Assembly: GCF_000934755.1 (NCBI RefSeq)
Contig: NZ_JYNP01000048.1
Span: forward strand, 1 to 48,599
Reading direction: 5' to 3'
Source: Desulfonatronovibrio magnus
GTDB lineage: Bacteria > Desulfobacterota > Desulfovibrionia > Desulfovibrionales > Desulfonatronovibrionaceae
DNA: 48,599 bases
A program made the position numbers and the translations under genes. The notes beneath the pieces were generated by a model. The model was given only the letters and a program-made list of their open reading frames with translations. It searched no databases and was not told where the DNA came from. Positions 4,574 to 48,428 of the stretch are shown piece after piece. Each line of letters opens with the position of its first letter. Within the stretch, counting starts at the first letter, position 1.

Positions 4574-5137
4574 CTAATCTTCAAAAAGTCTGTACTCGAA
4601 TGCTTCCTGCAGTTCACAATCAAGTTTAAGTTTCTGATGCAGCCTTGCGTTTTCTATGGCTATGGCACTCAGATTGGCGACAATGGTCAAAAACTCAATT
4701 TCTTCATCAGTAAACTCCCGGCATGTTTCAGAGTAACCCCTGAGCACCCCGATGTACTGGTCTTCGATTTTAAGAGGTATGACCACAACAGATGCGATGC
4801 CTTCTTCTTTGGCCTTTTCAGGATACTGAAATCTTGGATCACTGCAGGCATTGTGAATGGTTACGTTTCTGCCTGACAATGCTTCCTGGTCAAGCCCGCT
4901 CTTTTCAACCCGCACAGCACCTTTACGGATATAACCCTTGCTTAGTCCATAAGAAGATCCGAGCATCAATCTTTTGCCTTCCTTATCCAAAAGTCTGATG
5001 GAAGCTGCTTTAAGCTTCATGGCTTCAGTGACCTGCCGGGAAATCTTGTGCAAAACTTTGGAAGGGTCCAAGCTTGAGTTAATGACCTTGGCCACTTCAT
5101 ACAGTGAATGATAATAGTCTTTTTCGGTTCCGCTCAT
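4574..5137 (-). CDS. Stand-alone GAF domain protein
   Basis: 187 residues, essentially one GAF domain (about residues 20-165). The protein starts with a helix (YHSLYEVAKVINSSLDPSKVL), has the core pattern ASIRLLDKEGKRLMLGSSYGLS, then VVVIPLKIEDQYIGVLRGYS and a closing helix (FLTIVANLSAIAIENARLH). GAF domains bind small ligands, haem or iron-sulfur centres, and usually sit in sensors. No kinase, GGDEF, HTH or phosphatase output domain is attached, so it must act through a partner or as a ligand-binding protein. Cysteines at NACSDPRF and SETCREF might bind a cofactor; this is a guess. A ribosome site (GAGGAGGT on the minus strand) precedes the ATG. Confidence 0.88.
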   Translation of the reverse strand: MSGTEKDYYHSLYEVAKVINSSLDPSKVLHKISRQVTEAMKLKAASIRLLDKEGKRLMLGSSYGLSKGYIRKGAVRVEKSGLDQEALSGRNVTIHNACSDPRFQYPEKAKEEGIASVVVIPLKIEDQYIGVLRGYSETCREFTDEEIEFLTIVANLSAIAIENARLHQKLKLDCELQEAFEYRLFED

Positions 5138-5211
5138 TAAGTACCTCCTCGTAAAAATACAGATTTATATGTTAGTTAAGATTTAAGATCCTGTCAAAGG
5201 AGCTGTAGGAG

Positions 5212-5229
5212 AACTTGAATTTTCAAGTT
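5212..5229. repeat. Short perfect inverted repeat
   Basis: AACTTGAA-TT-TTCAAGTT, upstream of the GAF-domain gene. Its two-base loop makes it a better protein-binding site than RNA hairpin. Related TCAAGT sequences recur near 2328 and 11132. Confidence 0.5.
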
Positions 5230-5250
5230 ACTGAATATCAGGCGTTTATT

Positions 5251-5294
5251 AGCTCCTCACCCGGGCGGCCCGGGACCGAACCTGCGAGTAACTG
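5251..5294 (-). repeat. 45-bp dispersed palindromic repeat, copy B
   Basis: Nearly identical to copy A (AGCTCCTCACCCGGG...GCGAGTAACT). The central CCCGGGCGGCCCGGG is strongly self-complementary. It forms the left end of the composite element 5251-5530. Confidence 0.88.
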
Positions 5295-5530
5295 AAAATG
5301 AGTCTCCTCTATGGACATTGGGACAGTCCCCGCGAGGAAACGTTAAAAAGTTTGATACTGCATTGGTTTTTGGCAAAAATCGGTTTTAATGAAAAAGTTT
5401 ACATAGCGAGGGACAGTCCCTGTGCCAAGCGCAAAGTTCCCATCTTTGACGGTACTTTTTTGGTAATTGTAAGTGAATCTTAAGGAAAAATCGTAACACA
5501 CTGAAAAACATAACAGCTTGAAATAATTGA
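5251..5530 (-). mobile_element. Composite non-coding repeat element, copy B
   Basis: It has the same order as copy A: the 45-bp repeat, GGACATTGGGACAGTCCC, GCGAGG, a stretch with ATACTGCATTGG, then GCGAGGGACAGTCCC, CATCTTTGACGG and an AT-rich end. It lacks the GCATCCTGCAGG module and the CTCCGGGC-rich stretch of copy A. It lies between the GAF gene and aat. Ends are approximate. Confidence 0.65.
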
Positions 5531-5547
5531 CATAAAAAAGTAGTTAC

Positions 5548-6255
5548 TTAGAAGTTTACCTGCTGCTGGTGAAAAATGTTTTGCCAGTTATGGTTAAGGC
5601 CCTTTTTAACGACGGCCCCTTGCAAGTTATGATAAAATATCCTGCCTGAAACCTCCTCTGCTCCGAAACGAAGCATATGCTGGGTAGTTTGCTGGCAATC
5701 TATAAAATGAAATTTGTTTTTAGCCAAAAAACCAACAAGTTTAACCAGGGCTACCTTGGAAGCATCAGGCAGGAAATAAAACATGGACTCTCCAAAAAAT
5801 GCCTTGCCCAGGGATACCCCATAAACTCCGCCAGCAAGCTTATTGTTGCTCCAGACTTCCACTGAATGAGCGTAACCTGATTTATGCAGACGAATATAAG
5901 CATCCATCATTTCAGGTACAATCCATGTTCCATTACCGTCCGGGCGTGACACGCCCGCGCAATACTCTATTACTCTTTCAAATGCCCTGTCTGCAGTGAC
6001 TGTGAAGCGTCCGGAATTCAGAGTGCGGCGCAGGCTGCGAGAGATATGCAGTTTCTCCGGATAAAGAATCAGCCTGGGGCTGGGAGCCCACCATAAGATG
6101 GGGGAGCCTGGGCTGTACCAGGGAAAAATACCCTTGGAATAGGCGTTAAGCAGTCGCTGTTCACTCAAGTCCCCGCCTATGGCAAGTAATCCATCCGGGT
6201 CAGCGTTTTCAGGGTGGGGAAATACCGTGCCCTTGGTCAGAAAAGATACACTCAC
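5548..6255 (-). CDS. aat: Leucyl/phenylalanyl-tRNA-protein transferase
   Basis: 235 residues, a normal length. Aat transfers Leu or Phe from its tRNA to proteins with N-terminal Arg or Lys, making an N-degron that ClpS hands to ClpAP. Family signatures are present: FPHPENADPDGLLAIGGDLS near the N-terminus, GIFPWYSPGSPILWW, then VEVWSNNKLAGGVYGVSLGKAFFGESMF and FIDCQQTTQHMLRFGAEEVSG (each conserved block seen in part). It is the third gene of clpS-clpA-aat, 51 bases after clpA, so pathway and gene order agree. Confidence 0.96.
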   Translation of the reverse strand: MSVSFLTKGTVFPHPENADPDGLLAIGGDLSEQRLLNAYSKGIFPWYSPGSPILWWAPSPRLILYPEKLHISRSLRRTLNSGRFTVTADRAFERVIEYCAGVSRPDGNGTWIVPEMMDAYIRLHKSGYAHSVEVWSNNKLAGGVYGVSLGKAFFGESMFYFLPDASKVALVKLVGFLAKNKFHFIDCQQTTQHMLRFGAEEVSGRIFYHNLQGAVVKKGLNHNWQNIFHQQQVNF

Positions 6256-34424: not shown

Positions 34425-34469
34425 AGTTACTCACAGGTTCGGTCCTGGCCAGTCCGGGTGAGGAGCTTA
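34425..34469 (+). repeat. 45-bp dispersed palindromic repeat, copy D
   Basis: AGTTACTCACAGGTTCGGT, a diverged centre (CCTGGCCAGTCCGG) and TGAGGAGCTTA. It is not attached to the long composite element. Confidence 0.85.
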
Positions 34470-34540
34470 CAAGTAACTTCAAAAAAACTGGCCCCCGGAT
34501 CAAGTCCGGGGAGACGGTTAAAGCAAGTTTTTACTCTTAT

Positions 34541-34568
34541 CGTCATTCCGGCGAAGGCCGGAATCCAG
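34541..34568 (+). repeat. CGTCATTCCGGC-type palindromic repeat
   Basis: CGTCATTCCGGCGAAGGCCG followed by GAATCCAG. A repeat type very common in diverse bacterial genomes; the arms ATTCCGGC / GCCGGAAT are perfectly complementary. Confidence 0.75.
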
Positions 34569-34707
34569 TTCTTTTCTTGTTCACAAGCTCCAGACTGGGA
34601 ACACCTCTTTTTTTTGTGGCTCCATCCACATTTTAAAGAAGCGGCTGAAGCCGCAAGAACTAAACCCCCCAGGCTCCAGCCTGGGAACGAGTGTTAAGGC
34701 TGTTTTG

Positions 34708-34752
34708 AGTTACTCTGAGGTTCGATCCCGAACCGCCCGGATGAAACGCTTA
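34708..34752 (+). repeat. 45-bp dispersed palindromic repeat, copy E (diverged)
   Basis: AGTTACTCTGAGGTTCGAT, CCCGAACCGCCCGG, ATGAAACGCTTA. Recognisable but with several changes, so an old copy. Confidence 0.75.
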
Positions 34753-35016
34753 CAATTCGAGTGTTACGTTGTAGTATTGTGTGTAATTATTTGTTACCGG
34801 ATCAAAAAAGATGTTAATAAAAATTTTTGTTTTTCGTGATATTAGTACTGGCAATTTTTTTAAACTTAAGCTATTTGTTAAATAAATAACATGCGCGGAA
34901 CGAGTTTGATTATTTATTAACTGTAAAATCATTTGTGCTTCAGGCGTTCCCGGGTAGTGAATCCGGGCTAGTTAAGGACAAACCATTTTATTTACCAATT
35001 GGCAAAGGGGGTCAAT

Positions 35017-38000
35017 ATGTCACAAGAGAAAGTAGGCGCAGTCATGGTTGTCGGTGGTGGTATTGCCGGCATTCAATCCGCTCTGGACCTGGCTGAAGCC
35101 GGCTATTACGTTTATCTTGTGGAGAAGTCAGCCGGTATCGGCGGCGTAATGTCGCAATTAGACAAGACTTTTCCCACCAATGACTGCTCCATGTGAATTA
35201 TCTCGCCAAAATTGGTCGAGTGCGGTCGGCACTTGAATATTGAGCTTTTGACTCTGGCTGAGGTAGAAGGAATCAGTGGCGCTGAAGGAAACTTTCAGGT
35301 CAAAGTTCGTCAGAAACCACGAGTAGTGGACATGGAAAAGTGTATCGCCTGTAACCTTTGTGCGGAAAAGTGTCCCAAAAAGGTTGCTGACGAATACAAT
35401 GAAGGGCTGGTCAAGAGAAAGTCCGCCTACATTAAGTATGGTCAGACTGTTCCCTTGAAGTACGCCGTAGAGATGGACACCTGTATTTATTTTGTCAAGG
35501 GAGGCAACAAGGGCAAAAAGGGCGGCGGAAAATGCCGGGCCTGTGAAAAATACTGTCCTACCGGAGCCATTGATCTTGACCAGGAATTCAAGGACGAGAT
35601 CAAGGAAATCAACGTGGGATCAGTTATTCTCACGCCAGGCTTTAAATCTTTTGATCCCACTCCTTTTGACACCTATCAGTACTCCAATTTCAAGGATGTA
35701 GTTACCGGGCTGGAGTATGAAAGACTGCTTTCCTCCAATGGACCCTGTATGGGGCACCTTGTAAGACCTTCTGACCAGAAGGAGCCCAAAAAGATAGCAT
35801 GGCTCCAATGTGTTGGTTCAAGAAATATCAACAAATGTGATAATGGGTACTGTTCCTCTGTTTGCTGTATGTATGCCATTAAGCAGGCCATAGTTACTGC
35901 CGAGCATACCACAGGAGACGTTGAGCAGACGATCTTCTACATGGATATAAGAACCCACGGAAAAGAGTTTGACCAGTACTTTGAACTGGCCAAGAAAAAG
36001 GGCATCAAGTTTGTACCCAGTCGAATTCACAGCACCTATCCTGGAGACGGCGGCGGAGTTGAGGTTGAATATTTCGATGAATCCAAGGGACAAAGAGTAG
36101 TTGAAGGCTTTGACATGCTGGTTCTTTCAACTGGTCTTGAAGTAAGCGAAAGTGTCAAGGAACTGGCTGGTAAACTTGATATCAAGCTGGACAAGTACAG
36201 TTTTGCAGAAAGTTCCAGCTTTACTCCTTCAGCTACGAATATTCCAGGTATTTTTGCCAGTGGCTGTTTCCAGAGCCCTAAAGATATTCCTCAATCGGTT
36301 ACAGACGCATCAGCAGCTGCGGCATCAGCAGCAATATCCTTAAGCAGTCAGAGAGGGACCCTGGCCAAGGAAAGGACTTTTCCGGCTGAAAGGGATGTAT
36401 CCACTGAGGAACCAAGAGTGGGCGTCTTTGTATGTTCCTGTGGCATCAATATTGCCGGAACCATAGACGTTAATAATCTGGCCGAATACGCAAAAGGGCT
36501 GCCCAATGTGGTTTTTGTGGATAATAACCTCTTTTCCTGTTCTCAAGATACCCAGGTTATGATCAAGGAAAAGATTACTGAACATAATCTGAACAGAGTA
36601 GTGGTGGCAGCCTGTACTCCCAGAACTCATGAGCCGTTGTTCAGAGAAACCATGAAAGATGCCGGGCTCAATGAATACCTTTTTGAAATGGCCAATATCC
36701 GCAATCAGAACAGTTGGGTGCATTCCCAGGAGCCGGAGAAAGCCTTAGAAAAGGCCAGAGATCAGGTGCGCATGGCTGTGGCTAAAGCGTCCATGCTGGT
36801 GCCCTTGGAACATCTGACAGTTAATGTTAACCAGTCTGCCCTGGTTGTGGGAGGCGGTATTTCAGGCATGATTTCTGCCCTGGGGCTTGCTGATCAGGGT
36901 TATGAAACTATTCTTCTGGAAAAGACCGACAGGCTGGGCGGAAATGCCTGGAGCTTAGTCAGCACCTGGCGTGGTGAAGATATCAAGAAATTCCTGGAAG
37001 AGATAATTAACAAGGTGGAAAACCACCCCAATATCAAACTTTATAAAGATGCCCAGCTCAAGAGCAGCAAAGGCGCTGTGGGCGATTTTGTCAGTGAAGT
37101 GGAAATAGCTGGTGAGAAGAGGGCCATCAAGTATGGTATTGCAGTAGTATGTACTGGCGGTAAGGAGCTCAAACCCGAAGAATACCTTTACGGTCAGGAT
37201 CAGAGGATCTTTACCCATCTTGAGTTTGACAAGGAGCTCATGGACCATAAACCTGCTCTGGAAAAGGCCAAAGGCGCTGTGTTTATTCAGTGCGTAGGTT
37301 CACGCGAACCGGACAGGCCATATTGCAGCAGGGTTTGCTGTACGCATACCATGCATTCAGCCCTGGAGCTCAAAAAAGCCAACCCAGACATGCCTGTTTA
37401 TGTCCTTTACCGTGACATCCGTACTTATGGTGCAAGAGAAGATCTATACAGAGAAGCCAGAGAAAAGGGTGTTATCTTCATCCGGTACAACCTTGAAAAC
37501 AAACCTGTTGTTGCCAAGGACGGTGAAGATATCGTTGTCACAGTCAAGGATCATGTACTGCAGCGAAATGTAGAGATCAGGCCCGGATACCTGGTTCTTG
37601 CTTCTGCAATCCTGCCTTCGGACAACAAAGATCTGGTGGATCTGTACAAATGTGGTCTGAACAGCGATGGCTTCCTGCAGGAAGCACATGCCAAACTGCG
37701 TCCTGTTGACTTGAGTGTTGACGGTATGTTCCTGGCAGGCCTCTGTCATTATCCCAAGCCTGTAGATGAAGCCATAGCTCAGGCTCAGGCGGCGGTTTCC
37801 CGAGCTTCCACCATCCTGTCCAGAGCTGTGATGCCTCTGGATTCCATTAAATCATATGTTACTGAAAATTGTGATGGTTGTGCCATTTGCGTGGATACTT
37901 GTCCTTACGGCGCCATCAAGTTGACTGGATATGAAGAAGATGGGGTAGACCATAAAAAGATTGAGACCAACAAGGCCCTGTGTAAAGGTTGTGGTATTTG

Positions 38001-38094
38001 CGAAGCAACCTGTCCCAAGCATGGGGTATATATCCATGGGTTTACCAATGAGCAGCTTAAGGCCCAGATTTATGCGGCTTTAGAAAATGTTTAA
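35017..38094 (+). CDS. hdrA: HdrA-like electron-bifurcating subunit, double module, selenoprotein
   Basis: 1025 residues if UGA at 35194-35196 is read as Sec60. HdrA carries FAD and several iron-sulfur clusters and bifurcates electrons in Mvh-Hdr complexes. Module 1 has [17 protein letters not shown] and NDCSMU followed by [12 protein letters not shown], where relatives have Cys at the U. A ferredoxin-like insert follows ([14 protein letters not shown] from about 109), then [20 protein letters not shown]. Module 2 starts at a second FAD motif (GGGISGMIS, about 612), with [17 protein letters not shown] and a C-terminal 2x[4Fe-4S] ferredoxin (from about 952). Module 2 has no CSMC/CSMU-type loop. 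The reading frame is the same on both sides of the UGA. The start at 35017 ([15 protein letters not shown]) has GGGGG upstream. It is first in the cluster hdrA-mvhD-mvhG-mvhA. Confidence 0.93.
35194..35234 (+). promoter_or_regulatory. Sec UGA codon and SECIS candidate in hdrA
   Basis: UGA at 35194-35196. A stem AGTGC (35219-35223) / GCACT (35229-35233) presents the five-base loop GGTCG, 27 bases after the UGA. A loop with GGUC resembles the E. coli fdhF SECIS loop. A second possible stem lies closer (CTCGCC at 35202-35207 with GG-T-CGAG at 35214-35220). Confidence 0.72.
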
Positions 38095-38113
38095 TAACAA
38101 AGGAGAAATTTAG

Positions 38114-38548
38114 ATGGCTGAAAAGTATGAACCCGTCATTGTCGGATTTCTCTGCAATTGGTGCGCATATGCCGGCGCAGACCTGGCCGGCGTTTCTCGT
38201 TTGCAATATCCCACAAACATGCGCGCAATCAGAGTAATGTGTTCGGGAATGGTCCATCCGAATTTGGTTGTTGAAGCTCTGGAAAAGGGCGCTGATGGCG
38301 TCCTGGTCCTGGGCTGACACCTTGGTGAATGTCATTACCTGGATGGTAATCACAAAGCTTTTGCCAGGGCACAGGCCATAAAACTGGTATTGGAAGATCT
38401 GGGAATTGATCCTGAGAGATTCAGATTAGACTGGGTATCATCTGCCGAGGCTCCAAGGTTTGCCAAAGTAGTATCCGAGTTCACTGAGCAGATAAAATCT
38501 CTGGGTCCCAACCCTGTCAAAGCCCAAAAAGAGGCAGTAAACGCCTAA
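38114..38548 (+). CDS. mvhD: MvhD-like electron-transfer subunit, selenoprotein
   Basis: 144 residues if UGA at 38315-38317 is Sec68; without it the protein would stop at 67 residues and lose half of the conserved fold. MvhD passes electrons from the MvhAG hydrogenase to HdrA through a [2Fe-2S] centre. The motifs are [13 protein letters not shown] near residue 13, CSGMVHP, and GVLVLGUHLGECHY, where relatives have Cys at the U. The C-terminal half ([30 protein letters not shown]) is typical. A clear AGGAGAA ribosome site precedes the ATG; it is 19 bases after hdrA and 43 before mvhG. Confidence 0.93.
38315..38350 (+). promoter_or_regulatory. Sec UGA codon and SECIS candidate in mvhD
   Basis: UGA at 38315-38317. 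ATTACC (38334-38339) pairs perfectly with GGTAAT (38345-38350) and shows a TGGAT loop, 22 bases after the UGA. The same loop at the same distance is present in mvhA. Confidence 0.78.
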
Positions 38549-38591
38549 TGGCAGCGGGAATGCACTTCCCGTCCTTATGGAGGTAGCTTAT

Positions 38592-39524
38592 ATGACCAAG
38601 GTAACAGTAGCTGAAGAGTGGTTGAATGCCTGTGCGGGGTGTGAGATCGCTATTCTCAATGTTGGAGATGTCCTGGTGGACCTGCTGGTCAACAACCTGG
38701 AATTTGTACATATACCGGTGCTCATAGATAAAAAATACTTTGGGCAGACCGGTGAGGATAAAGAGCTGAGTATACCTGAAGCAGTGGTGGGCATTGTGTC
38801 AGGTGGAGTGCGCAACGAGGAACATAAAGAAGTTCTGCTTGAAATGCGCAAAAAATGTCAGATTCTCATAGCCCTGGGTACCTGTGCCACTGATGGCGGT
38901 ATTCCGGCCATGATCAATATGTATTCTGAAGAGGAACTTAAACAGTTTTATTACAAGGATTCACCTACCACTGATCCCGCCGAATATCCCACAGAGCATA
39001 TTCCACCCCTTTTGGATCAGTGTTATGCGCTGGATGAAATAGTCAAGGTGGACGTGTCCCTGCCCGGGTGCCCACCGCACCCTGACTGGATAGCTGGAGC
39101 CATCCTGGCCCTTCTCGATGGCAAGACCGAATTCAAGATGCCTGAAAGATCTGTTTGTGATGCCTGTCCTACGGTCAGGGAAAGCAAAAAAGGTATAGCA
39201 GACATCAAGCGTCTTTATATGGCTGCAGAATATGATCCGGAAAAGCCTCTCAATGAGATGCGCTGTCTTCTGGAACAGGGACTGTTGTGTCTCGGGCCGG
39301 TAACAGGCGTTGGCTGCGGGGGAACTAAAGGTGCTCCGAGGTGTATTTCTGCCAGGGTGCCCTGCAGAGGCTGTTATGGTCCCGTCAGAAAAGGTGCCAA
39401 ACCTTTGGTGGATTATATGGGAGCCTTGGCTTCCGTGGGATTTGATCCCGCTAAGATGCCTGATCGCCGCGGGTATCTGGCCCGTTTTTCCGGTGCTCAC
39501 GGCGTACTCAAAAAGATTGGTTAG
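38592..39524 (+). CDS. mvhG: MvhG-like [NiFe] hydrogenase small subunit
   Basis: 310 residues. It carries iron-sulfur clusters that take electrons from the NiFe site. The proximal cluster ligands are in AGCEIAIL, GTCATDGG and LPGCPPHPD. Further clusters come from CDACPTVRE and a C-terminal Cys-rich part (CLGPVTGVGCGG, CISARVPCRGCYGP). There is no twin-arginine signal, so the enzyme is cytoplasmic, as expected for Mvh. The start at 38592 (MTKVTVAEEWLNAC) has GGAGGT upstream; an ATG at 38577 would overlap that site. Not a selenoprotein: no internal UGA. Confidence 0.95.
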   Translation: MTKVTVAEEWLNACAGCEIAILNVGDVLVDLLVNNLEFVHIPVLIDKKYFGQTGEDKELSIPEAVVGIVSGGVRNEEHKEVLLEMRKKCQILIALGTCATDGGIPAMINMYSEEELKQFYYKDSPTTDPAEYPTEHIPPLLDQCYALDEIVKVDVSLPGCPPHPDWIAGAILALLDGKTEFKMPERSVCDACPTVRESKKGIADIKRLYMAAEYDPEKPLNEMRCLLEQGLLCLGPVTGVGCGGTKGAPRCISARVPCRGCYGPVRKGAKPLVDYMGALASVGFDPAKMPDRRGYLARFSGAHGVLKKIG

Positions 39525-39533
39525 GAGGATAAC

Positions 39534-40982
39534 ATGGGAAAGACTTTAAATATAGCTCCCATAACCCGCATTGAAGGGCATGCCAGTGTATCGATACATC
39601 TTGATGATACTGGGAATGTATCTGATGCCAGGATGCATGTTCTGTCCCTGCGTGGTTTTGAGCAATTTGTTTTAGGCAGGCCGGTGGAGGAAGTTCCGCG
39701 CATAGTTCCTCGCATCTGCGGTATTTGCCCCTGGCATCATCACCTGGCCTCCAATAAGGCAGCTGATGCCTGTCTTGGGGTCGAACTGCCACCAACTGGC
39801 AGAAAGTTGCGTGAGCTGTGTCAGATGATGGCCTACATTCCAGACAAGATTCTGCATTTCTATTTTCTGGCTGCTCCGGATTTCGTGCTTGGACCGGACG
39901 CAGACTATTCCGTCCGCAATGTTGTTGGAATAGTAGGAGCTAATCCTGAGCTGGCCAAGAAAGTAGTACATATGCGTTATAAGGGTCAGATGCTGCTTGA
40001 AAAGTTTGCAGGCAAGGTTATTCATCCCGTTGCCGGTGTTGTAGGTGGTTTTTCCAAGCCACTGCTTGAGGAAGAGCGTAAGGAAATCCTTGCAGGTATC
40101 CAGGAACTTAAGGACTTCAGCATATTTACCATTAAGTTTGCCAGGGAAGAAGTGTTCCCCAAATACTTGGATGCAGTAAAGATACTGGGAGTATTTCCTT
40201 CTGGCTACCTTGGAACCGTGAGACCTTCTGATGGAGCTCTGGAGCTTTACGACGGCGAACTCAGGATGATGGATAAAGACGGAAATTTTGATCAGTTTAC
40301 CTATCCGGAGTATGTAGATTACATTGGTGAGCATACAGAGCCGTGGACTTATCTCAAATTCCCTTATTCCAGAAAGGCTGGCAGCCTCAATCTCGATGAA
40401 AATGATCCAGTGGGCGTTTACCGCGCCAATACTCTGGCCAGAATTAATGTGTGTGACAAAATGGCTACACCCATGGCTCAGGAAGAGCTGGAAATTTTCC
40501 GCAAAGAGTTTGGTCGGCCCACCCATTTGACCCTTTTGTATCACTGGGCAAGACTTATTGAGCTTGTACAGGCCTGTGAAAGAGCCGAAGAGCTTCTGAA
40601 TGATCCTGAAATCACAGGACGTGAGCACAGGGCTAAAAATATTGAGCCAAGAGCCGGTGACGGGGTTGGATGTGTTGAGGCACCAAGGGGAACGCTGATT
40701 CACCATTACAAGACAGATGATAATGGAATGGTGACCATGGCCAACATGATTGTGGGTACAACCCACAATAATGCTCCCATGAACCTGTCAGTAAAACAGG
40801 CTGCCAGGGCACTTATCAAAGATGGAAGTTATGATCAGGGTATACTGAATCGTGTGGAGATGGCCATACGCGCCTACGACCCGTGAATGAGCTGCGCAAC
40901 ACACCGCCTGGATGGCGGCATCAACGTTGAGCTGAAGATTTACGATTCGCAGGGAAATGTCATTGAAACCATGGGTAAATAG
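39534..40982 (+). CDS. mvhA: MvhA-like [NiFeSe] hydrogenase large subunit, selenoprotein
   Basis: 482 residues if UGA at 40884-40886 is Sec451. The NiFe-binding motifs are RICGICPWH (Cys62, Cys65) and DPUMSCATH (Sec451, Cys454, His457). Other hydrogenases have DPCxxCxxH, so Sec replaces the first Cys of the C-terminal pair, as in known [NiFeSe] enzymes. After His457 a 25-residue tail (RLDGGINVELKIYDSQGNV and on) follows; maturation proteases normally remove such a tail after this His. A stop at the UGA would delete two nickel ligands and leave a dead enzyme. AGGAGG precedes the ATG; it is nine bases after mvhG. Group 3 (cytoplasmic, Mvh-like) by context and lack of signal. Confidence 0.94.
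40884..40918 (+). promoter_or_regulatory. Sec UGA codon and SECIS candidate in mvhA
   Basis: UGA at 40884-40886. CCGCC (40904-40908) pairs perfectly with GGCGG (40914-40918) and shows the loop TGGAT, 22 bases after the UGA, identical in loop and distance to mvhD although the stems differ in sequence. Confidence 0.8.
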
Positions 40983-41009
40983 ATTAGACAGAATAAAAGA
41001 AATGGTTTA

Positions 41010-41047
41010 AAAGAGGCCGTCTTCACATGAGTGAGGGCGGCCTTTTT
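41010..41047 (+). terminator. Terminator or attenuator between mvhA and the maturation protease
   Basis: AGGCCGTC and GGGCGGCCT pair (one G-U) with an 11-base loop and are followed by TTTTTC. It lies directly before the protease ribosome site (CAGGAGAG), so it could lower expression of that gene compared with the structural genes. Confidence 0.65.
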
Positions 41048-41066
41048 CAATTTTACAGGAGAGAAA

Positions 41067-41558
41067 ATGGACTGGTCAAGCATGTTTAATTCCAGAGTAG
41101 TCGTCTTTGGGTGCGGAAATACATTGTATGGTGATGATGGATTAGGGCCCAAAGTAGTTGAAGCTCTTGAAAAGGATGAATCACTTGGAAAGGATATAGC
41201 AGTCATTGATGCTGGCACATCCATCAGGCCACTGCTTTTTGACCTGATTATGGGCGACAGGCACCCGGAGCGAATTATTGTGGTGGATATTACCACTGAT
41301 GAAGATATTGAGCCAGGAGAAATCAAGGAAATTGACGTTGATCAGGTTGACCCGAAAAAAATATCTGATTTTTCCATGCATCAGTTTCCCACCACTAATC
41401 TTCTTAAAGAACTGAAGGACAGTACTGATATTAAGCTGAACATTCTGGTGGCCAGACCTGTAAATGTTCCTGAAAAAATGGCTGAAGGCTTGACTCCGGA
41501 GATGGAAAGGGCTGTTGGGAGTATTGTAGACCGGATCAAGGAGATTGTAGCTGTCTGA
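41067..41558 (+). CDS. Hydrogenase maturation protease (peptidase M52 family)
   Basis: 163 residues. These proteases cut the C-terminal tail of the hydrogenase large subunit after nickel insertion. The signature is VVFGCGNTLYGDDGLG with an Asp where HyaD/HycI have the nickel-binding Glu, then the Asp of VIDAGTS and a His in SMHQFP. Glu-to-Asp at the first site is seen in the Frh/Mvh-type branch, in line with its neighbour. The start at 41067 (MDWSSMFNSRV) has CAGGAGAG; a GTG 36 bases earlier is inside the terminator hairpin. The natural substrate is probably the MvhA just upstream. Confidence 0.93.
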   Translation: MDWSSMFNSRVVVFGCGNTLYGDDGLGPKVVEALEKDESLGKDIAVIDAGTSIRPLLFDLIMGDRHPERIIVVDITTDEDIEPGEIKEIDVDQVDPKKISDFSMHQFPTTNLLKELKDSTDIKLNILVARPVNVPEKMAEGLTPEMERAVGSIVDRIKEIVAV

Positions 41559-41627
41559 TTTTGCTTTATTTTTCCAGATGATATGATACTGCCTGACTTC
41601 CTGTTGCCTCAAGCTGAACTTTTCTTA

Positions 41628-41676
41628 AGCTCGTAGCTCGTAGCTCGTAGCTCGTAGCTCGTAGCTCGTAGCTCGT
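41628..41676 (+). repeat. Perfect 7-bp tandem array (AGCTCGT, 7 units)
   Basis: Seven identical AGCTCGT units without one mismatch, between the maturation protease and lepA. Perfect short arrays are prone to copy-number change. Confidence 0.95.
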
Positions 41677-41685
41677 AGACTAAAT

Positions 41686-41720
41686 CTTAAAACTTAAAAC
41701 TTAAATCTTAAAACTTAAAA
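41686..41720 (+). repeat. 7-bp tandem array (CTTAAAA, 5 units)
   Basis: CTTAAAA, CTTAAAA, CTTAAAT, CTTAAAA, CTTAAAA. It ends 13 bases before the lepA ATG and follows the AGCTCGT array after only nine bases. Confidence 0.93.
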
Positions 41721-41733
41721 CCTCAGTTCCTCA

Positions 41734-43536
41734 ATGATAAACCAAAAAAATATTCGTAACTTCAGTATAATAGCTCATATTGATCATGGTAAATCAACTC
41801 TTGCGGACAGAATTCTGGAAATAACCGGTCTGCTTGGTGAAAGAGATAAAAAAGATCAGTACTTAGACAGGCTGGAGCTTGAGCGGGAAAGGGGCATTAC
41901 CATCAAGGCTCAGTCAGTGCGCATTCCGTATAAAAGTAAAGATGGACAAGACTACGTGTTGAACCTCATTGACACACCTGGTCATGTGGATTTTTCTTAT
42001 GAGGTTTCAAGAAGCCTTGCAGCCTGTGACGGTGCTCTTCTTGTTGTTGATGCCACTCAGGGGGTTGAGGCCCAAACCCTTGCCAATGTTTACATGGCTC
42101 TGGATCATGATCTTGAAGTGATCCCTGTGTTGAATAAAATTGATCTTCCCAGTAGTGAGCCTGAGCGCATTGCTTCAGAGATTGAGGAAATAATCGGATT
42201 AGACTGTTCTGATGTGTTGAAGGTCAGCGCCAAGACAGGTCAGGGTGTGCCGGACGTATTGGAAAGACTTATAAAGGATATTCCTCCTCCAGTTGGAGAA
42301 CGTCTTCAGCCTCTTAAAGCTCTGATATTTGATTCATGGTATGATTCATATCTCGGAGTGGTGGTTTTGTTTAGAGTTCTGGACGGAAGCATTAGTAACG
42401 GTCAGGAAATCATGATGTTTTCCAATCAGAAAAAATTTGAGGTTACCAGGCTGGGTGTTTTTTCCCCTGATCCTCAGGAAATAAAAGAGCTTGGACCGGG
42501 GGAGGTTGGTTTTTTATGTGCAGGGGTCAAAGATCTGCAAGAAGCCAGAGTAGGCGATACCATAACTTCAACCGATAATCCTACTCAAACTCCCTTTCCA
42601 GGATTTAAGCGTATCAAGCCAATGGTTTTTTGCGGACTTTACCCTGTGGAATCAGCTGATTATGAGGGTTTAAAAAACGCATTGGAGAAACTGCAGCTCA
42701 ACGACGCCGCCCTTGACTATGAGCCGGAAACCTCACAGGCATTGGGCTTTGGATTTCGCTGCGGATTTCTGGGCTTGCTCCATATGGATGTCATTCAAGA
42801 GCGACTGGAGCGGGAGTTTCAGGTTAATCTCATTGCTACAGCTCCTTCTGTTATTTATAAGGTCGTAGGTGTGGATGGAGTCGAGTTTGAGATAGATAAT
42901 CCGTCCAAACTTCCTCCAGTGCAGGAGATACAATGCGTAAAAGAGCCATTTGTGAAAATGGAGATTCATGTTCCCAATGAGTATGTAGGCAATGTACTCG
43001 GTTTGTGTGAGGAAAAAAGGGGCGTTCAGGTAAATATGCATTACCTGTCCTCCACCAGGGTTATTATAACCTATGAATTGCCTTTTGCTGAGATAGTCTT
43101 TGATTTTTTTGATCGTTTGAAATCAGTGACAAGAGGGTTTGCCTCGCTGGATTATGAAGTTATAGACTACCGTGAATCAGATCTGGTCAAGTTAGACATA
43201 ATGATCAACAGTGAGCCTGTGGACGCCATGGCAGTTATTGTTCACCGTGAAAAAGCATACCACAAGGGCAGGGCTCTGGCTCTCAAGCTCAAACGTGCTA
43301 TTCCCAGGCAGCTTTTTGAGGTCATCATCCAGGCGGCCATTGGCAATAAGATTGTAGCGCGGGAGCGAACAGCTCCTCTTCGGAAAAATGTCACTGCCAA
43401 GTGTTACGGAGGTGACATTACACGGAAAAGAAAGCTTCTGGAAAGACAAAAAGAGGGTAAACGCAGAATGAAAAAAATGGGGAGTGTTGAAATTCCCCAG
43501 GAAGCCTTTCTGGCAGCCCTGCAAAGTGATGACTGA
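41734..43536 (+). CDS. lepA: Elongation factor 4 (LepA)
   Basis: 600 residues, the normal length. A translational GTPase that acts on stalled or initiating ribosomes. G1 is [10 protein letters not shown]3 is DTPGHVDF and G4 is NKID; the LepA-specific C-terminal domain ([20 protein letters not shown] in parts) is complete. The start fits the family ([17 protein letters not shown]), but no Shine-Dalgarno is visible; the 5' leader is the CTTAAAA array instead. Confidence 0.97.
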
Positions 43537-47362: not shown

Positions 47363-48367
47363 TTAGTTGTCGGTAATCTTTCGGACCTGGTCAGTGAATT
47401 GATCCATGTTTTCAGCTCTCAATGAGAAGTCAAAGAGGGCGTCCAGAACTTCTAAAGATTGTATTGTTTTTATGCGGTTGACTATTTCGGGCTGAAGGAT
47501 TCCTAATCTAGAATTGGCAACTTTTAAAACTGATTCACATGGCGACTCAATTCTAGCAACCCCCTCCCAATAAGGTCTCCTTGATTGCTCAACCCCCTTT
47601 AAAATTTCCTGCACTGCTACTCCTACCATATCCTCACCTCCTGGAAATCGCCTGGTAAGCTCGGTTACTCGCTCCTCACTCAAAGGACCCGATGCCAGTA
47701 CGTATTTCAAAATATTAAACAGATATTCTTTCCTTTTATCCTCATCAGGCAGCTGCTCAAGCAAGTCAAATATTTCCTGCAGCTTTATGTCCAGTTCAGG
47801 GAAGTGAATGTACTTAAAAAGCAGATGAAAAATTTCCATAAGGATAGAGGTTTTGAAAGCCTCGTCTGCCATATGTGTTATGTCATGCAGTAAATGCCTG
47901 AACTTAGGAATAAAAACTCTGAATGACTCATGGGGTATGTCAAAATAGTCTTCAAAGTTGTGGCTGAAGTTCCACTTATTTACACCGTGATAAATAATCA
48001 CGGGAATAACTATAGGCAAGTAGCCTGCCAGCTTGTTACGTCTGTAAAGGTTCATCCATTTCTGGACTGAATAGTGAAGAGCTTGAAGCAGTGCGTACCT
48101 GTCCGGGTAACTTTTATGTTCAAAGAGGAAATAGAGTTCTGCAATCTCGCCGCTTTTTTTTAGCCGAACCCTGACAACCACGTCAGTAAGAAACTCTTTG
48201 AACTCTTCAGCTACAAACCCGCTAATATCAATTTCTATTTCTGACAGATCTAAGTAGGCCTTGATTTCATCCGGTATGTGATAGTCTATGAAATCTCGGA
48301 CCAGCTCTTCATCCTGGAAAAAGGTCTTGAAGCCTGCATCGTGTGGGGATGGAATTTCAAATGACAT
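47363..48367 (-). CDS. Rpn family (PD-(D/E)XK) nuclease, second paralogue
   Basis: 334 residues. Same family and same length as the gene at 528-1532. The catalytic set is D62 (LTDVVVRV) and E83-x-K85 (LFEHKSYPD). Shared blocks include LPIVIPVIIYHG, FVPKFRHIHHDI / FIPKFRHLLHDI and EIFHLLFKYIHF. The start at 48367 (MSFEIPSPHDAG) parallels the first copy's MENEIIRQAHD; an ATG at 48397 adds ten residues. The C-terminal part differs more than the nuclease domain. It points away from the recombinase fragment. Confidence 0.85.
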   Translation of the reverse strand: MSFEIPSPHDAGFKTFFQDEELVRDFIDYHIPDEIKAYLDLSEIEIDISGFVAEEFKEFLTDVVVRVRLKKSGEIAELYFLFEHKSYPDRYALLQALHYSVQKWMNLYRRNKLAGYLPIVIPVIIYHGVNKWNFSHNFEDYFDIPHESFRVFIPKFRHLLHDITHMADEAFKTSILMEIFHLLFKYIHFPELDIKLQEIFDLLEQLPDEDKRKEYLFNILKYVLASGPLSEERVTELTRRFPGGEDMVGVAVQEILKGVEQSRRPYWEGVARIESPCESVLKVANSRLGILQPEIVNRIKTIQSLEVLDALFDFSLRAENMDQFTDQVRKITDN

Positions 48368-48428
48368 AGTGAAAAGATATCTTATGGTTTGGGACAATGC
48401 AAGAAGATTAAATATCAGCTTTTAGTTG

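Follow-up and report, generated by a model that had tools for sequence, protein, structure and literature searches.

The 48,599-nucleotide contig NZ_JYNP01000048.1 of Desulfonatronovibrio magnus (the whole of which is called the window here, and C16 within its genome) carries an hdrA-mvhD-mvhG-mvhA operon followed by a hydrogenase maturation protease gene. One in-frame UGA codon lies at a cysteine site in each of hdrA, mvhD, and mvhA, which confirms the central claim of a preliminary description of the sequence. The prediction that these three genes encode selenoproteins is well supported. So is the conclusion that the operon is a further example of an established type and not a discovery, since reports of it from related bacteria go back to 2006. 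The genes and the UGA codons, read as selenocysteine (Sec), are as follows.

35017–38094, plus strand: hdrA, predicted double HdrA-type flavoprotein/iron-sulfur protein, ATG start, Sec codon at 35194–35196
35194–35196, plus strand: predicted Sec (UGA) codon of hdrA, from the codon reading in the window and relatives
38114–38548, plus strand: mvhD (FrhD/VhuD/FlpD family), Sec codon at 38315–38317
38315–38317, plus strand: predicted Sec (UGA) codon of mvhD, from the codon reading in the window and relatives
38577–39524, plus strand: mvhG, hydrogenase small subunit, zero UGA in frame
39534–40982, plus strand: mvhA, [NiFeSe]-type hydrogenase large subunit, Sec codon at 40884–40886
40884–40886, plus strand: predicted Sec (UGA) codon of mvhA, opening the C-terminal UxxC motif
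41031–41558, plus strand: hydrogenase maturation protease, HycI type, from family scans

When TGA is read as Sec, a single TGA falls in each of the three genes (U66 of a 1031-residue HdrA, U68 of MvhD, and U451 of MvhA), and the frame is open on both sides of it. The respective contexts are NDCSM-U-IISPKL, VLG-U-HLGECHY, and AYDP-U-MSCATH; we take the C-terminal UxxC motif of MvhA to be nickel ligands. Cysteine faces these sites in a second cluster of the same genome (NDCSACILTPL, GGCHYGDCHY, and YDLCLACATH). Standard gene calling had been expected to damage all three genes, and translation table 11 bears this out: hdrA is split into open reading frames (ORFs) of 65 and 960 residues, MvhD is cut to 67 residues, and MvhA to 450. 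Taken as a stop only, UGA breaks three genes of one energy-conserving complex. An alternative TTG start at 34999, upstream of the ATG of hdrA, would add six residues.

The sites were compared in 58 loci fetched after an MvhA search of genome contigs; the nearest full-length loci (88–92% identity) are labelled Desulfonatronovibrio and Desulfonatronospira. The mvhA site could be read in 55 of the 58 loci, as TGA in 44, TGT in 8, and TGC in 3. At the mvhD site, 33 of 41 rows have TGA and eight have TGY (40 loci, one of them with two rows). For hdrA the figures are 24 and 2 of 26 rows, after 10 rows at 25–33% identity, in which the aligned codon was not TGN, had been dropped. Three of the dropped rows are second rows of loci that already give a TGA row and, judged from gene spacing, the site is expected outside the fetched stretch for six more. 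The rows kept hold UGA or UGY only. Where all three sites are readable (24 loci), UGA occupies all three in 22 and cysteine all three in two (L071 and L074), with no mixed locus. L069 is a partial exception to this all-or-none pattern, as its mvhA has UGA, both of its mvhD rows have cysteine, and it offers no usable hdrA row.

An order-level survey covered 120 genomes, the window's own included, of which 27 had a match, and gave 41 MvhA matches past an E-value of 1e-100. One internal TGA is present in all 20 matches that have at least 59% identity and reach the site (the place of the TGA was unchecked for each row). Three of the 41 are N-terminal fragments that stop short of the site, and the other 18, all at 49% identity or less, have no stop. 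Table 11 puts stops at the three codons, which is the only point in favor of their being sequencing or assembly errors, or true stops in decayed genes. Such an origin is refuted by conservation and has a negligible probability: the 22 of 24 relative loci with UGA at all three codons, the 20 order-level sequences (of which the window's genome supplies one), and the open frames on both sides of each UGA all argue against it.

The preliminary description had proposed a search for selA, selB, selC, and selD, with absence of selB or selC to refute its reading. This check came out in its favor: all four are present above curated cut-offs in the D. magnus genome (4.81 Mb in 134 contigs, with a completeness of 97.53), with scores of 612 for SelA (cut-off 268), 386 for SelB (242), and 374 for SelD (125), and 81.9 bits for tRNA-Sec, the selC product (gathering score 47). 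Among 14 control genomes, matches above cut-off were obtained in five for tRNA-Sec, two for SelB, one for SelA, and two for SelD. The selD gene itself has one internal TGA, in GAG-U-ASK, which matches the UxxK motif given for SelD in the relevant passage of PMC13188914. Contig C127 carries a hydrogenase gene that has a TGA (AFDP-U-LGCAVH) and matches HysA with a score of 852 against a cut-off of 780. With these two, the genome is predicted to contain at least five Sec genes (hdrA, mvhD, mvhA, selD, and hysA). Were UGA reassigned genome-wide, for example to tryptophan, Sec machinery would not be needed. We reject this reading as next to impossible, given that the full machinery is present and that UGA within hdrA, mvhD, and mvhA is confined to the cysteine sites, one per gene. 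Furthermore, the protease gene and the gene at 41734–43536 terminate at UGA under table 11 and would extend beyond it if UGA were read through.

The bacterial selenocysteine insertion sequence (SECIS) is a hairpin just past the UGA with a G in its loop. The loop G is also stated in a figure legend of PMC1794560. A hairpin in this position, with G in the loop, was found at all three sites.

35216–35236, plus strand: putative SECIS-like hairpin of hdrA, 8 pairs, loop GGUCG, core GUGC[GGUCG]GCAC
38334–38350, plus strand: putative SECIS-like hairpin of mvhD, 6 pairs, loop UGGAU, AUUACC[UGGAU]GGUAAU
40904–40918, plus strand: putative SECIS-like hairpin of mvhA, 5 pairs in the window, loop UGGAU, CCGCC[UGGAU]GGCGG

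The stems begin 19–22 bases past the first base of the UGA in all three genes. Pairing was counted over the distinct UGA sequences, window included (24 for hdrA, 34 for mvhD, and 45 for mvhA, of which 34 have a sixth pair). Paired cells numbered 184 of 192, 204 of 204, and 257 of 270, respectively, compared with at most 89, 157, and 181 when the 3' side was slid by one to three columns as a control. In Cys homologues, the paired cells were 5 of 16 for hdrA (two sequences) and 21 of 66 for mvhA (11 sequences). Two pairs of the mvhA stem show double-sided substitution (C-G to U-A in 5 and 13 sequences), as does one pair of the hdrA stem (C-G in 7 and U-A in 10, the position being unpaired in 4 of 24). 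One pair is broken in mvhA of L042 and L047, and two in hdrA of L033 and L082. The proposed alignment to cysteine-containing homologues gave cysteine or UGA at every site, and a conserved hairpin follows each UGA. Kept in the UGA genes and not in the Cys genes, these hairpins appear to be SECIS-like. The Cys mvhD rows of L069 retain much of the hairpin sequence with its pairs broken, as if Sec had been replaced by Cys fairly recently.

Several results weigh against the selenoprotein reading. The stem pairs of mvhD are invariant among UGA sequences, so that without covariation the evidence there is conservation alone, which may be partly an effect of the protein sequence; 27 of 48 mvhD cells are still paired in the eight Cys homologues. 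An Rfam scan of 34500–42000 matched no SECIS family. (The sole match, a long non-coding RNA model at E 2.4, is weak and was taken as chance.) Single-sequence folding is weak, with z values for hdrA, mvhD, and mvhA of −1.97, −0.56, and −0.79 over 51 nt and −1.46, −1.25, and −0.04 over 67 nt, so the case for the hairpins depends on comparison. The hairpins were also picked by eye on the window sequence, which favors them over the slid controls. At the level of the genome, the Sec-machinery models also give matches below cut-off in some or all of the 14 control genomes, and for that reason only scores over cut-off were counted as evidence. Finally, the best NCBIfam matches of the four structural proteins (HdrA2/HdrA for hdrA, VhuD and FlpD for mvhD, VhuG for mvhG, and VhuA and VhuU for mvhA) all lie under the curated cut-offs, that of hdrA being judged among the 25 of 130 matches listed.

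Pfam matches over cut-off were obtained for PF02662, PF00374, and PF01058. The solved relatives found were 5odc, 9sw2, and 7bkb, and the closest ones of MvhA and MvhD include methanogen HdrABC-MvhADG complexes. Residues 16–390 of HdrA align to 147–505 of 5odc_A, one of three matched stretches. Together with stretches of 32–43% identity to the HdrA of the second cluster, this marks the protein as an HdrA that lacks the usual N-terminal part and is followed by a second HdrA-like unit. From these relationships and the evidence given above, we consider it very likely that the operon encodes a cytoplasmic HdrA-MvhDGA complex that would carry out H2-driven electron bifurcation, its three redox subunits being selenoproteins. 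SelB and tRNA-Sec would decode the UGAs as Sec under the direction of the hairpins, and H2 would be split at the Ni-Fe-Se center of MvhA. By analogy with the solved HdrABC-MvhADG homologues, electrons would pass from MvhA through MvhG and MvhD to the HdrA flavin, which would bifurcate them to ferredoxin and a second, higher-potential acceptor. No HdrB-type gene, which would have pointed to this acceptor, adjoins the operon.

Hydrogenase proteases cleave off the C-terminal tail of the large subunit. The adjacent protease (41031–41558) probably processes the MvhA C-terminus and, judged from its family, would trim the tail past UxxC..H. The mvhA hairpin starts within the His codon of this motif and would thus lie mostly within the part encoding the removed tail.

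Of 16 matches to CCG-domain genes (HdrB or GlpC type) in the genome, none is on C16. There is no CCG-type ORF upstream of hdrA, so the adjacent Sec-containing glpC of the five-gene form of the operon is missing. Nor were hdrB and hdrC found beside the operon, C16 having no HdrB-type CCG domain (HdrC was not searched for genome-wide). One of the 16 CCG-domain proteins encoded elsewhere could possibly serve in trans. The HdrB and HdrC matches fall within the second cluster, a separate six-gene row on contig C3 (hdrA, hdrC, hdrB, mvhD, mvhG, and mvhA) that has no stops and has cysteine at all three sites. The two clusters could form a selenium-dependent pair, with the Cys cluster substituting under selenium scarcity, in the way that M. 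maripaludis swaps Sec and Cys isoforms by selenium supply (described in part of PMC11097638). The existence of the Cys cluster speaks for such a pair; identity between the clusters is low (58% for mvhD, 33% for mvhG, and 43% for mvhA, besides the hdrA stretches already given) and, with hdrBC among its genes, the Cys cluster seems to be a different enzyme and not an isoform. We regard the pair as rather unlikely. Equally tentative is the proposal that a triple-Sec HdrA-MvhDGA without adjacent HdrBC forms a distinct selenium-obligate bifurcation module, in which the double HdrA would feed a non-heterodisulfide acceptor and Sec would be gained or lost jointly at the three sites. The joint change is suggested by the 22 triple-UGA and two triple-Cys loci.

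The preliminary description compared the cluster with methanogens only, and the novelty that this implied does not hold. As early as 2006, an hdrA-frhD-frhG-frhA operon from Deltaproteobacteria was reported to have Sec in these families; the pertinent passages of PMC1794560 place it in Syntrophobacter fumaroxidans (three similar operons) and Desulfotalea psychrophila, with an additional glpC and a duplicated or fused hdrA, and propose transfer from archaea. The window shares with this glpC-hdrA-frhD-frhG-frhA form the gene order, Sec in HdrA, FrhD/MvhD, and FrhA/MvhA, an FrhG without Sec, and the duplicated HdrA. It differs in that its contig has no glpC-type gene and its two HdrA units are one protein. 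Desulfobacterium autotrophicum HRM2 likewise has a cytoplasmic Sec-containing Mvh hydrogenase (MvhA2DG) clustered with a Sec-HdrA1, for which bifurcation was suggested in 2009; the excerpts of PMC2702500 name HdrA1 as well as four MvhD among the Sec proteins and do not specify the Sec residue of MvhA2. That cluster adjoins hysAB, whereas in D. magnus the HysA-type gene is on another contig. Sec-containing HdrA and MvhD are noted in Desulfococcus multivorans (excerpts of PMC5109826), frhA-frhD-hdrA is called a typical selenoprotein operon (2026; excerpts of PMC13188914), and these selenoprotein families are listed in the portion of PMC9312934 concerned. The Vhu/HdrA-U operon of Methanococcus maripaludis (the same excerpts of PMC11097638) also unites HdrA, VhuD, and VhuU/MvhA as Sec subunits; unlike the window's operon it is archaeal, and VhuA and VhuU, which are separate NCBIfam models, are one protein in the window. 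The solved archaeal homologues 5odc and 9sw2 are grouped with it as closest known systems. Among the papers listed by a literature search that included the genus name (12 of 741), none names Desulfonatronospira and so none reports the operon there, which is not proof of absence. The window contributes a further genome, a form whose contig lacks glpC, and the downstream protease. The locus is also a clear conserved case for asking why selenium is found jointly at three redox sites of a single complex.

Some relatives carry additional sequence at the operon. In 4 of the 24 loci with a UGA hdrA (L031, L035, L040, and L047), the hdrA frame extends upstream without a stop through a helix-turn-helix segment that the window's hdrA does not have. 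In L035 (Desulfosarcina widdelii), this segment matches PF12728 (HTH_17) and lies in one ORF with the start of HdrA, the part that binds flavin adenine dinucleotide. In these relatives HdrA may carry a fused DNA-binding domain. L035 also has an FrhB/FdhB-type gene (PF04432 and PF04422) at 4762–6003, between mvhD and mvhG. Similar-sized gaps occur in other relatives (e.g., L031, L038, L047, L049, and L053), and the window has no such gene.

Upstream of hdrA, window positions 34458–34697 share a repeat (translated as VIPAKAGIQ.FSCSQAP) with a stretch beside selD on C23 (L111), and hence this seems to be a dispersed intergenic repeat. A scan for sigma-70 promoters found 11 sites where 11.3 were expected, and its result was set aside. 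Near the two ends of the window, the minus strand encodes related proteins of 346 (528–1568) and 344 (47363–48397) residues, both of which match PF04754 (Transposase_31, YhgA-like) over cut-off.

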